This document shows positions 26,260-30,022 of a stretch of 45,247 bases of DNA, in pieces. A model generated the notes under the pieces. It saw only the letters and a program-made list of their open reading frames with translations. It was not told the origin of the DNA and did not search any database. The stretch's first letter is position 1; every line of letters begins with the position of its first letter. The stretch is from an uncultured Lachnospiraceae bacterium (lineage in GTDB: Bacteria > Bacillota > Clostridia > Lachnospirales > Lachnospiraceae): contig CANQCY010000012.1 of assembly GCA_947591245.1 (NCBI GenBank), forward strand, positions 1-45,247, given 5' to 3'. Made by a program: the position numbers and the translations under genes.

Positions 26260-26592
26260 TTATCTCTCATCGATATCATAATACTTCGGTATTAAAATAT
26301 AGTTTCCGGTATGTATTTTTGCGCATGCCAGTTTGTTTAAGGAGATGATCTCATCGACATAGGACTGTATTTCCGTGTTGGTCGGATGATCGAGATTCGC
26401 CCTGGCGATCGACCAAAGCGAATCCCCCCGGCAGATCAGTACGGACTCATAGCGCATGACATCGTCTACCTGTTTACCGGCGCTTTCCGCATGAATATCA
26501 GTAAAAAATAAAATTGCGCATGTTAAGATAATGAGCGGTAAAGCGATATAAAACACCGTTTTGTTTAATATAAGGATGCTATTATGTTCCAT
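26260..26592 (-). CDS. Small membrane-anchored LysM protein, YneA-like
   Basis: A 110-residue protein with an N-terminal membrane segment (~12-32, VFYIALPLIILTCAILFF) and a LysM domain (~50-105) beginning YESVLICRGDSLWSIARANL and ending TGNYILIPKYYDIDER. The ATG at 26592 has GGAGGT just upstream; the frame extends further 5' but without a good start. Size and layout match YneA, the Bacillus SOS-induced division inhibitor. The SOS-box-like sites in its leader support that, but no lexA gene is adjacent, so the assignment remains inference. The amidase is encoded downstream on the same strand. Confidence 0.82.
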   Translation of the reverse strand: MEHNSILILNKTVFYIALPLIILTCAILFFTDIHAESAGKQVDDVMRYESVLICRGDSLWSIARANLDHPTNTEIQSYVDEIISLNKLACAKIHTGNYILIPKYYDIDER

Positions 26593-26657
26593 GACAACTA
26601 CCTCCGTTTGTAAGAAAATCCGTACTAGTACATGATCAGGCCTGCATATTCTGCAAT

Positions 26658-26697
26658 CGAACAAATAATCCGAACATATGATGCGAACATTTGTTTT
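26658..26697 (-). promoter_or_regulatory. Three CGAACA sites at 13-base spacing (SOS-box-like)
   Basis: On the + strand CGAACA occurs at 26658, 26671 and 26684, exactly 13 bases apart. The last is CGAACATTTGTTTT, close to the Gram-positive LexA box GAAC-N4-GTTC. They lie immediately downstream of the LysM gene -10 box and span the predicted start of transcription. Confidence 0.6.
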
Positions 26698-26701
26698 AAT
26701 T

Positions 26702-26730
26702 ATAGTACTATACAAACGTGTGTTTGTCAA
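26702..26730 (-). promoter_or_regulatory. Promoter of the LysM gene with internal palindrome
   Basis: Read on the minus strand: TTGACA (26730-26725), 17-base spacer, TACTAT (26707-26702). The spacer region holds the palindrome ACAAAC-GTGT-GTTTGT (26712-26727), which has the same spacing as a LexA box but with A/T at one position of each half. Repressor binding here would block RNA polymerase directly. Confidence 0.75.
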
Positions 26731-26769
26731 GCTTTTTTGACAGTATTTTTATAAAAATTATAATGCCGT

Positions 26770-28281
26770 CTATTCAATCATATATTTGTAAAGATCCGTG
26801 CCATAGCTGGAATAATGCGGTTTGCCCGGAATCATCCGGAACGTGCGGTCGCCGTTTTCCTTGCGTTCTGCCACAAGGAATTCCGTATTGTCCAAATGCT
26901 CTTCATACACCCTGCTGGCAAATTCGTGAAGGTGCGTCACCATCATTATTTCAATTTTCTTTTGATAGAGAGGCATAATGACATTGTATGCGATCTGCGA
27001 CCCCTCTTTTTCTGTGGTGCTGGCAAAAGATTCATTCAAGAGAAGCAGGCTGTCGCGCGAAAGATGCGAAATAATGCCGCTCATGCGCTTTAGTTCCTCT
27101 TCCAGCCTTCCACGCGACAGCATGGCATCCTCTTTCCTTGTAAAGTGGGTATGGATTTTTGAATACAGATGCGAGCGGAATTTTGAGGCCGGAACAGGCA
27201 TGCCGCACTGCAGCAACACCTGAGCAATGCCAAAGCTCCTTAAGAACGTTGATTTTCCGCCCTGATTGGCGCCCGTTATTATGGTTAAAACCGTATCCTT
27301 ATCGTTCAGAGAATTGGACACCGGACGTACCTGAACGTATAATGCAAGGGATAGTTCATACAAATCAACAATGTCTTTTTGTTCCGAATCGGTACAGCCT
27401 TCCCCATAGCAGAGGGGAAGGGACAATTCCGCCATGCGGTTTTGCAGCGTATTGACCCCTTTATAAAAGCTGATTTCTCTTGAAAAATCAAACCAGAACG
27501 ACGACAATTCCGCAATAAGAGGCTGATAGAATTTCATCAGGTGATGCATATGGATATCGACAAATGCGTGAAGGTCACGTTCCAGTTCTTCGCTTTCCAC
27601 AAGTATGGTATCCCGTTTTACTATCTTATAGTAGAGTTTTAGGATTTTGCGGGAAGTATTTTTTAATGCGGCGGCGCTATAACTTCTGCATTTGCACAGA
27701 CGGCTGCTGTCCAGCTTGAGTCCGCCGCTGATCCGAATAGAAAAAATCCCCTCGCCGCCTGTCGTATAAAACATGGCATTCCTGTGAAATTCCTGAAAAT
27801 CGTCCAGCGGATAAGAGGAAAAACGCTCGCAAAAACGCCGAAGCCCTTCTGATTTAAGATCCTGCTTCCGCTCTTCTGCCGCGGCGGTAAGTTCTTTTAA
27901 AAGCGCGATGGATTCAGCCGTAAAATTAAGGGCGGATATGACGGCTCCCGCTCCTGACGCCGACTTGTTCCGATTTTGTTCCAGTTCCTTTTTGTAGCGG
28001 TCGGCAAGCCGCATGCCGCGCCGGCAAATGCCGTACATCGTATCGATCAGGTCGCGGTGGCAATAAAAATCCTGAATCACTGCGTGGCGGTATGCGATCA
28101 CAGCCGGTTCGCAGACGGGAACCATCATTACGCTCCGGATATGCTCCATTATGAATACATCATCCTGAGCCATTGTTTTTAAGACGATATTTAAATTCAA
28201 ATCTTTGTAAATATCCTGAAAGGATGGATACGGTTCCTCTCCGGCGATTGTTTTTTCCGGATACAATAAAAATGAATTCAT
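26770..28281 (-). CDS. MutS-related ATPase, second of a tandem pair (Walker B Asp replaced by Asn)
   Basis: A 503-residue protein with a MutS core-like helical region (residues ~20-320) and a MutS-type ABC ATPase domain. Walker A is TGANQGGKST (Lys343). Walker B reads LLLLNE (Asn416, Glu417), where MutS has LDE. The mismatch-binding domain with GxFYE is missing and there is no Smr domain, so it is neither MutS nor MutS2. The ATG at 28281 has GGAGG five bases upstream and is preferred to an ATG at 28293. It starts 18 bases after its paralogue's stop, so the two are probably co-translated and may form a heterodimer. Function unknown. Confidence 0.85.
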   Translation of the reverse strand: MNSFLLYPEKTIAGEEPYPSFQDIYKDLNLNIVLKTMAQDDVFIMEHIRSVMMVPVCEPAVIAYRHAVIQDFYCHRDLIDTMYGICRRGMRLADRYKKELEQNRNKSASGAGAVISALNFTAESIALLKELTAAAEERKQDLKSEGLRRFCERFSSYPLDDFQEFHRNAMFYTTGGEGIFSIRISGGLKLDSSRLCKCRSYSAAALKNTSRKILKLYYKIVKRDTILVESEELERDLHAFVDIHMHHLMKFYQPLIAELSSFWFDFSREISFYKGVNTLQNRMAELSLPLCYGEGCTDSEQKDIVDLYELSLALYVQVRPVSNSLNDKDTVLTIITGANQGGKSTFLRSFGIAQVLLQCGMPVPASKFRSHLYSKIHTHFTRKEDAMLSRGRLEEELKRMSGIISHLSRDSLLLLNESFASTTEKEGSQIAYNVIMPLYQKKIEIMMVTHLHEFASRVYEEHLDNTEFLVAERKENGDRTFRMIPGKPHYSSYGTDLYKYMIE

Positions 28282-28299
28282 GCCAACCTCCATATTGAT

Positions 28300-29877
28300 C
28301 TACAAATGAGCAATTCGTTCTGTAATCTGATCGTAACCCAGTCCGTATTTTTTTACAATAGAATCCGAATAGCCTAGCCCCTCCGCTTTTTCCGGAATAA
28401 TTTTAAACGTCCGTACGGAGAGGTCGTTTTTGTCTACTTGCGCAACCATGCTCTGGATGCCCTTCTGCTCTGTTTCATCCGCCAGTTCGCGTATATGGGT
28501 CACATATATGCCGAGACACCCATTCTGTATAAAATGCCGCATTACTTTTTTTGCCATGATTTGGGCGTCGTATGTCGTCGCGGTGGTAAACAGCTCGTTT
28601 AGTATGACAAAACTGTTTTGCGAAGACATGTGCATCATCGGTTTAAGCCGGCGGAGCTCCTCCTTCAGCTTTCCCGCACCGGTTTCCACGCTCTCTTCCA
28701 CTTCAAAGTGGGTCAGGATACGTTCAAAAAATCTTGTATTCATGGAACGGCAGGGCGCTTTCAGCCCTATCAGCATAAAGTAAACGGATTGTCCCAGCGC
28801 TCTCGCCAACGTCGTCTTTCCACCCTGATTTGGCCCGGTTATGACCAGAAATGATTTTTCCGGCTGATAAGCGATGTCATTGCAGACGATCCGGTATTCG
28901 GAAAAACGGTTTTTCCATGCGAGCGCAATGTCGTAAACATCCGTTATGTCAATGCCGCCGCCCTCCTTTATATCGGGAAACGAAAGCTCATATCCAAACG
29001 TATTAAGCTGACGTTCAAATTCATAAAAACTGATGTAAAAAATTATTTCATTTTTTAAATGGATAAATGCGTCGCCTTCCGGCGTAAACGGGAAGGAAGC
29101 AAATTCCCGCAGCATGCGGAAAACGTCAGGGCTGCTTCGTCTCAGTATATCGACAACTGCCTGCTCAAGCGGGCTCGTTTCCAAAGGCGCCGGAAACAGA
29201 TTGGCAACCGCTTCATCATATTCTTCCCATTTATCGTCTGTCGGAACGTCAAAGGCGCGTATATAATTTTTTAGCTGTTCCAGAAAGCTCCCGGCTTTAT
29301 CCGGCTGATCTTCCCTATCTTCCAGTACGCTGATTTCCTTATCGCGGACAAGCAGGGTAAGTTTCAGTTTTTCCATATCCGAAAACGACCGCCGCACAAT
29401 CTCACGAAAATGGCAAAAATCAGGATCTTCAAATGCCTCATCCAGAAGGCGTCGGTACTCCAGAAGCCCTTCCGAAGTAAGACGCGCCTTTTTAAGAGCA
29501 TCCCTCATAAGTTCCAGAGCCTCCACATATTTTTGGCAGGAAAGAAGCCGGTAGCTGCCCTTTTTTATTTCGTCTTCCGCCTGACGGCAAAAGGAAAAGA
29601 ATTTTTCACACGCCAGAAGAAGCCCCGTATATTTCTTTAGAGGAAGAATGATATCGCTGTTTCGTTCCAGATCTTTGTATATTTCCTGCCGGTAACGCAC
29701 TGTTCGGGAGGAATTCGGTATCGTGTAATAATATTTCCGGATGTCAAAATCCATGTATTTTGATGTAATGGCGCTGCAAACCGGTTCTAACTGTAAATCC
29801 CCGAAAAATGCGGGCGGCAGGGTCTCATAGCGATTGCATTCCTGAAGATCAAGCAGGCTGAAAAATGTTTTTTTCAT
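28300..29877 (-). CDS. MutS-related ATPase, first of a tandem pair (Walker B Asp replaced by Asn)
   Basis: A 525-residue paralogue of the gene that follows. Walker A is TGPNQGGKTT (Lys354) and Walker B FVILNE (Asn427, Glu428), again with Asn for Asp. The region before is helical and charged, like the MutS clamp and lever. There is no mismatch-recognition or nuclease domain. The start is placed at 29877 (MKKTFFSLLDL), preceded by AGGA; the frame stays open upstream toward rpoZ but that part is rich in Arg/Cys and covers hairpins. Two hairpins separate it from rpoZ. Function unknown; a role in genome maintenance is only suggested by family. Confidence 0.85.
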   Translation of the reverse strand: MKKTFFSLLDLQECNRYETLPPAFFGDLQLEPVCSAITSKYMDFDIRKYYYTIPNSSRTVRYRQEIYKDLERNSDIILPLKKYTGLLLACEKFFSFCRQAEDEIKKGSYRLLSCQKYVEALELMRDALKKARLTSEGLLEYRRLLDEAFEDPDFCHFREIVRRSFSDMEKLKLTLLVRDKEISVLEDREDQPDKAGSFLEQLKNYIRAFDVPTDDKWEEYDEAVANLFPAPLETSPLEQAVVDILRRSSPDVFRMLREFASFPFTPEGDAFIHLKNEIIFYISFYEFERQLNTFGYELSFPDIKEGGGIDITDVYDIALAWKNRFSEYRIVCNDIAYQPEKSFLVITGPNQGGKTTLARALGQSVYFMLIGLKAPCRSMNTRFFERILTHFEVEESVETGAGKLKEELRRLKPMMHMSSQNSFVILNELFTTATTYDAQIMAKKVMRHFIQNGCLGIYVTHIRELADETEQKGIQSMVAQVDKNDLSVRTFKIIPEKAEGLGYSDSIVKKYGLGYDQITERIAHL

Positions 29878-29919: not shown

Positions 29920-29945
29920 GTTTGCGTCGCAGCGCAGACGCAAAC
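29920..29945 (-). other. Hairpin upstream of the MutS-like pair
   Basis: GTTTGCGTC and GACGCAAAC form a perfect 9-base stem with an 8-base loop, 43 bases before the start of 28300-29877. Read in the gene direction it is followed by ATTTCGTT, so it could act as a weak terminator or leader structure. Confidence 0.5.
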
Positions 29946-29977
29946 TTGCCGTGTGAATGAACAAAGTAAAACAATAA

Positions 29978-30000
29978 GGAGCTTCGCATAGCGAAACTCC
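29978..30000 (-). terminator. Probable terminator/attenuator after rpoZ
   Basis: Read in the gene direction, GGAGTTTCGC and GCGAAGCTCC form a 10-base stem (one G-U pair) with a TAT loop, followed by TTATTGTTTTA. It lies 22 bases after the rpoZ stop and may reduce read-through into the MutS-like pair. Confidence 0.6.
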
Positions 30001-30022
30001 CATTTGATGCCGCATATCTTTT

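Follow-up and report, generated by a model that had tools for sequence, protein, structure and literature searches.

A tandem pair of MutS-like genes in the window

The stretch of DNA analysed here, referred to as the window, comprises 45,247 nucleotides of contig CANQCY010000012.1 (assembly GCA_947591245.1) from an uncultured Lachnospiraceae bacterium, and it carries two adjacent genes, here named A and B, that encode MutS-like ATPases. Judged by sequence comparison, the two genes form a genuine and strongly conserved unit that encodes a MutS-type ATPase whose ATP site has been rebuilt, and it is not MutS1, MutS2 or KamC. An earlier reading, made from the letters of the window alone (the sequence-only reading), had described tandem genes of 525 and 503 residues separated by 18 bases, and the coordinates, strand, lengths and gap are exact. 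The features of the pair are listed below, where Asn-type and Asp-type refer to the Walker B residue of the ATPase domains compared in the tree.

28300..29877, minus strand: gene A, MutS-like ATPase of 525 amino acids, first of the pair; Pfam MutS_V; the A and B profiles align over 472 columns with an hhalign probability of 100
28816..28818, minus strand: codon of Walker A Lys354 of A, invariant in the A alignments
28672..28674, minus strand: signature-loop Gly402 of A, from the alignment (Ser in 25/25 Asp-type rows)
28594..28599, minus strand: Walker B Asn427-Glu428 of A, from the alignment
26770..28281, minus strand: gene B, MutS core/lever/clamp/ATPase protein of 503 amino acids, second of the pair; Pfam MutS_V; predicted model with a predicted local distance difference test score (pLDDT) of 86.9
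27592..27756, minus strand: residues 176-230 of B, a predicted clamp-like beta hairpin and helix with a net charge of +8 in the window protein
27253..27255, minus strand: codon of Walker A Lys343 of B, from the alignment
27109..27111, minus strand: signature-loop Gly391 of B, from the alignment (Ser in 25/25 Asp-type rows)
27031..27036, minus strand: Walker B Asn416-Glu417 of B, from the alignment

MutS domain V (Pfam MutS_V) is the sole Pfam match above cut-off in either protein, with 67.3 bits for A and 77 bits for B against a cut-off of 30.2. HMMER aligns the LNE of A and B (or the INE of the profile) with the LDE/IDE of Taq MutS, MutS2 and MSH2, and the Asn that the sequence-only reading had placed at residues 427 and 416, next to a retained Glu and downstream of the Walker A lysines Lys354 and Lys343, is thus correctly aligned. 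The same reading had both proteins lacking the mismatch-binding domain of MutS and the Smr nuclease of MutS2, and indeed neither domain gave a Pfam match in A or B at E values up to 1. The genome containing the window, which is 85% complete, holds three MutS_V matches, namely A, B and a MutS1-type gene that also lies in the window (match 2124-2693).

Conservation of the pair and its rebuilt ATP site

Relatives of B were found in 557 instances, from which 80 named loci were kept; most bear the title Lachnospiraceae or Clostridia, and a few are Anaerolineae or other Chloroflexi. Together with loci added later from whole genomes, these yielded 105 distinct proteins for A and likewise 105 for B, and the Walker B Asn is present in 105/105 of the former and 105/105 of the latter. 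Since one of the two seed patterns for the B-relative search included the B Asn, the B count is partly non-independent; the A counts and the sets based on hidden Markov models are independent of that pattern. Both Asn codons are in use (AAT 65 and AAC 40 in A; AAT 63 and AAC 42 in B), and a residue that is invariant under these circumstances is not explained by chance. Neither misalignment nor loss of the Asn, either of which could have undone the sequence-only reading, was encountered.

Along with the Asn in Walker B, the signature and the D-loop have changed, so that the active site carries three linked changes, a wider alteration than the single substitution described earlier. The signature Ser of 25/25 Asp-type rows is replaced by Gly in 79/80 Asn-type rows, and the D-loop Gly, likewise found in 25/25 Asp-type rows, is replaced by Ser, Thr or Ala in 78/80, with all A and B rows included in both counts; the deviating members are distant ones, L080 with a signature Ser and L080 and L212 with a D-loop Gly. 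On these alignments, selection maintains the Walker B Asn as one element of a rebuilt ATP site. For comparison, the D693N variant of Escherichia coli MutS has a crystal structure (3K0S; PMC3848065), and no rate for this variant was found in the literature searched.

These substitutions raise the question of whether the sites turn over ATP at all. The His that follows the ATPase strand is Phe in 13/24 A rows, so A and B may not both hydrolyze ATP conventionally, and together with the three active-site changes this could suggest a scaffold whose sites bind nucleotide and never hydrolyze it. We consider such a scaffold improbable, given that neither the Walker A Lys nor the Walker B Glu varies in the 69-row alignments of A and of B.

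A single origin of the Asn-type domains

A tree was built from 105 ATPase domains after the Walker B and D-loop columns had been removed. Its rows comprise 80 Asn-type domains (24 A, 24 B and 32 others) and 25 Asp-type domains (3 MutS1, 7 MutS2, 3 KamC and 12 from a membrane-type family), with one MutS2 row, L183, omitted owing to misalignment at Walker B. The 80 Asn-type domains form a single clade with support of 100/99, and the 25 Asp-type domains fall outside it. A single clade implies that the Asn was not acquired twice; on this tree, one inherited Asp-to-Asn change accounts for the residue in both A and B. The sequence-only reading had attributed the same change in both copies to selection, and this explanation holds for the retention of the Asn, not for its appearance, which was one event and not two parallel ones. 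We name the group N-type, and the window pair belongs to it by its Asn-Glu, its signature Gly, its D-loop Ser/Thr/Ala and its placement in the clade.

Asn-type MutS-like genes also occur as other, more distantly related tandem pairs in L080, L187, L196, L236, L237 and L281, with no fluoride riboswitch in the stretches searched. The membrane-type family (L243-L255) is a separate MutS-like family of about 530-650 amino acids, apparently membrane-anchored as judged by eye, with the normal Asp in 12/12 aligned members. A viral origin of the pair was considered and rejected, as none of 62 pattern matches proved to be a relative.

A and B as a two-gene unit

In 84/90 loci, A immediately precedes B on the same strand. 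The other six are accounted for by L113, which also has A, by L123, in which the end of A is at the contig edge, and by four loci with B at the contig edge; in the loci examined, A is directly upstream of B wherever the contig permits. The genes are 18 bases apart in the window, both on the minus strand, and overlap by 4 bases in 53/85 pairs. Of 61 genomes, the window's being one, A is present in 22 and B in 21 when fragments at contig ends are counted, and the only genome with A and without B is G022, whose A runs into a contig end. Independent occurrence of the two genes, which would have spoken against the pairing proposed from the sequence alone, was therefore not seen. Distances within A and within B are correlated with r 0.94 over 104 pairs, as expected under joint inheritance. 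With this linkage and correlation, A and B may form a heterodimer.

The pair is patchily distributed, with a strong A match in 18 genomes besides the window's among 398 drawn from the phylum. Two or more A-B copies are present in the metagenome-assembled genome that contains L128 and L147, and in G006, G015 and G491. Neighbors of the pair vary among Lachnospiraceae, and the neighbor clusters examined contained neither a constant third gene near the Lachnospiraceae pairs nor a constant DNA-repair neighbor. Within the window's own subgroup, an rpoZ-like gene is found upstream of the pair in 9 loci and a small protein downstream of B in 10 loci, the window being included in both counts; the latter protein is LysM by Pfam in the window.

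Structural model of B and comparison with known MutS-type proteins

The predicted model of B aligns over residues 13-503 with MutS domains III-V (core, lever, clamp and ATPase), and this predicted fold of B, together with domain V scores above cut-off in both proteins, places the pair in the MutS superfamily. From the match to MutS along the whole length, residues 176-230 of B are probably clamp-like. The notion of an ATP-driven clamp put forward in the sequence-only reading is thus a reasonable one on the predicted structure. The model also matches the core of MutS2, including a ribosome-bound MutS2 entry.

The pair shares with MutS1 and with the MSH2-MSH6 heterodimer (MutS alpha) the core, lever, clamp and ATPase fold seen in the B model, as well as the idea of a heterodimer. 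Unlike them, A and B have no match to domain I or II, form a separate clade and carry Asn, Gly and Ser/Thr/Ala in the ATP site instead of Asp, Ser and Gly. An identity as MutS1 was rejected on the two TIGR01070 scores (57.6 and 51.1 bits vs 641.7) and the absence of a domain I match. The MutS2 core is similar to the pair in lacking the mismatch domain, and the B model aligns to MutS2 residues 1-500; however, A and B have no Smr match, and the MutS2 rows carry the Asp and cluster with KamC. With scores of 63.2 and 59.6 bits vs 400 and a separate clade, A and B are not MutS2 either.

KamC, the reactivase ATPase of lysine 5,6-aminomutase (NF052383), is likewise a MutS-like ATPase of about 500 amino acids and is the best (A) or second-best (B) NCBIfam match. 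Yet the scores of 60 bits for A and 67.3 bits for B lie far under the cut-off of 300, the pair forms a separate clade and KamC keeps the Asp; a link to KamC and B12 was rejected on this basis. The three KamC loci look by eye like kam clusters. Among PADLOC anti-phage systems no convincing whole-protein match was obtained, only short matches in the ATPase region (best E 0.0005). According to a 2024 review (PMC12292046), numerous MutS subfamilies of prokaryotes that lack domains I and II are largely uncharacterised.

A fluoride riboswitch heads most pairs of a sister branch

A functional lead comes from a sister branch of other Bacillota and Chloroflexi, in which 28 cases were scored for a fluoride riboswitch (RF01734) at the head of A or of an A-B operon. 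L303, with a complete A, B beyond the contig end and no switch, was counted among them; two deeper pairs without a switch (L302 and L261) and two with A at the contig edge (L155 and the first pair of L128) were left out. The riboswitch heads A, or an operon ending in A-B, in 20/28 cases at the Rfam gathering score, and in 23/28 with weaker matches. In 16/28 it lies directly upstream of A with no gene between, at or above the gathering score (L284, L287-L291, L293, L297, L300, L301, L259, L262, L128, L145, L147 and L158, that of L288 being 410 bases away), and in 4/28 it heads a same-strand gene run ending in A-B (L285, L292, L296 and L299). The three weaker cases are L260 (33.2 bits, Rfam) and L286 and L159, detected with a second model, R1, whose training set was 19 Rfam matches, 7 of which lie just upstream of A; the 20/28 figure uses Rfam alone.

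The association was compared with several controls. None of 48 other MutS-like, non-A/B loci has the switch within a flank of up to 1.5 kb, a set in which three KamC loci are counted twice and some loci overlap; all 7 riboswitch matches of that scan fall at A/B loci, and 4/11 A/B loci there have no match. For 40 high-scoring riboswitches in 40 genomes without A, taken from the top of the list, no MutS was found in up to four following open frames (13/40 stretches having fewer than four), bar one 15.7-bit match. RF01734 is present in 17/18 strong A-positive genomes vs 138/379 others (p 8e-7, not corrected for kinship).

Recurring neighbors resemble a fluoride regulon: across 29 loci, mostly of the sister branch, they comprise the major facilitator superfamily (8), a dynamin-like GTPase (8), DUF6062 (7), a Na/H exchanger (6), Usp (5), DUF190 (5), enolase (4) and CrcB (3). 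Enolase is a fluoride-sensitive enzyme. Its presence near the pair in 4/29 loci, and the naming of KamC in NCBIfam as an enzyme reactivase, would fit a protein-directed role in which the pair clears another enzyme of a dead ligand, for instance a metal-fluoride complex bound to it. We give this role little credence: no enzyme is a constant neighbor, KamC groups with MutS2 and keeps the Asp, and the KamC scores given above are far from the cut-off.

A gene called 'mutS', described as DNA repair and assigned to no named family, appears among the crcB-motif genes in Weinberg 2010 (PMC2864571). The riboswitch-bearing A-B pairs of the sister branch fit the description of that gene, and the window pair has no riboswitch. 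The 2010 entry 'DNA repair (mutS)' can now plausibly be assigned to a family of two genes that is defined by a distinct ATP-site signature and spans Lachnospiraceae, other Bacillota and Chloroflexi. The literature searched contained one paper on the crcB motif together with mutS, none on a fluoride riboswitch together with MutS, and no Asn-type MutS family in the titles and opening lines of abstracts, though Ogata 2011 or Baker 2012 could describe one.

The dynamin-like GTPase genes near the pair are those of L286, L287, L290, L292, L296, L297, L299 and L301 (Dynamin_N in the one scanned), and proteins that look dynamin-like by eye stand directly 3' of fluoride riboswitches in L329 and L338; this GTPase is possibly an unexplained member of the fluoride regulon. 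The DUF6062-type proteins carry CPIC-like motifs and occur in L145, L259, L285, L287, L297, L299 and L301 (Pfam in the one scanned).

Interpretation of the pair in the window branch

We put at about an even chance the reading that A and B together build one obligate MutS-type clamp ATPase of the N-type clade, probably as the two halves of a heterodimer, and that it is used in stress, the stress being fluoride in the riboswitch branch. Under this proposal, A and B would dimerize head to tail, as MSH2 and MSH6 do, and ATP binding would close the ring of lever and clamp on a substrate, either a nucleic acid or a ribonucleoprotein. The altered Mg-coordinating and signature residues might slow hydrolysis, or lessen the dependence of the closed state on normal Mg-phosphate chemistry, and the clamp would serve under stress, including fluoride stress where the riboswitch is present.

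Several observations weigh against this proposal. Within the sister branch, L294, L295, L303 and L154 have no switch, and L298 has only a 24.7-bit candidate. Neither the window nor its genome, at the completeness given above, has an RF01734 match at the Rfam threshold, and 73 other named loci outside the sister branch (19 of them in the tree and 12 also scanned with Rfam) have no credible fluoride riboswitch with the R1 model. CrcB was not found in the window genome, nor in 54 others (55/61 genomes searched). The Asn predates the fluoride link, being carried without the switch by other N-type relatives, and so did not arise for fluoride. The His-to-Phe replacement in A also counts here. Outside the sister branch the only R1 match is in the window itself, far from the pair and with an E value of 0.42, and a Rfam scan of 12 Lachnospiraceae-side loci found no other riboswitches near the pairs, only two tRNAs. 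For the window pair, a fluoride role would follow from orthology and is not a fact of this genome.

In a concatenated tree, all riboswitch-bearing pairs fall in one 26-row subclade, and the window belongs to a 22-row Lachnospiraceae clade (Shimodaira-Hasegawa-like approximate likelihood ratio test, SH-aLRT, 98) that contains no such pair. This confinement, with the Lachnospiraceae rows, L154 and the two deeper pairs all lacking the switch, would suit a window-branch pair that acts as a general DNA or ribosome clamp like MutS2, in recombination control or stalled-ribosome rescue, fluoride being a later regulatory recruitment in the sister branch. The predicted fold of B, matching the MutS2 core and the ribosome-bound entry, and its basic clamp-like segment point the same way. 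On the other hand, A and B have no Smr part, no DNA-repair gene is constant among the neighbor clusters, and many pair-bearing relatives carry in addition a frame of MutS2 size, a putative MutS2 matched along the KamC profile, so that the pair is not a simple replacement. We regard a general clamp of this kind as possible, if on the unlikely side.

Together with ADP, Mg- or Al-fluoride can trap P-loop ATPases of the ordinary kind. If the Asp that coordinates Mg and the Ser that grips the phosphate are missing, a site would withstand such trapping, and the Asn/Gly/Ser-Thr site might then let the clamp work under fluoride, as a fluoride-tolerant MutS taking over a nucleic-acid or ribosome clamp task. 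The Asn, which predates the riboswitch, would in that event be a pre-existing trait co-opted for fluoride. We see this as a slim prospect.

The sequence-only reading had proposed a DNA-maintenance system; this is not supported, as the single functional lead found is to the fluoride regulon, and that in the sister branch only. The pair may belong to stress biology instead of mismatch repair, and 'MutS' annotations of N-type proteins should not be read as mismatch repair. Why fluoride switches on a MutS-like clamp, and whether the unusual site resists metal-fluoride trapping, have become testable questions.

Surroundings of the pair in the window

The flanking features of the pair are the following.

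29977..30001, minus strand: terminator-like hairpin of 11 pairs with a T-rich tail, between rpoZ and A (sequence scan and fold)
29920..29945, minus strand: second hairpin, in the A leader, ending 42 bases before A (sequence scan and fold)
26260-26730: region downstream of B with the gene for a small LysM protein (Pfam LysM) and the SOS-type palindromes in front of it

The gene upstream of the pair, named rpoZ by eye, had been thought to feed A and B from its operon. This is doubtful, since the hairpins between rpoZ and A imply that the pair may not be transcribed from rpoZ, and a leader of its own seems to precede the pair in the window branch; the region holds 5 terminator-like sites vs 4.6 expected, which is no enrichment. 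The SOS-like promoter previously placed at the end of the pair fronts the downstream LysM gene and not the pair: a perfect SOS-type palindrome, CAAACGTGTGTTTG, lies at 26713-26726 and another, less exact one at 26684-26697, and a promoter-like site on the minus strand also precedes the LysM gene. We take the CAAACGTGTGTTTG palindrome to be a LexA box, and the small LysM protein is presumably similar to division inhibitors of the YneA type. On the plus strand, a 12/12 match to the sigma-70 consensus (26737-26764) lies at the 3' end of B and is directed antisense into it.
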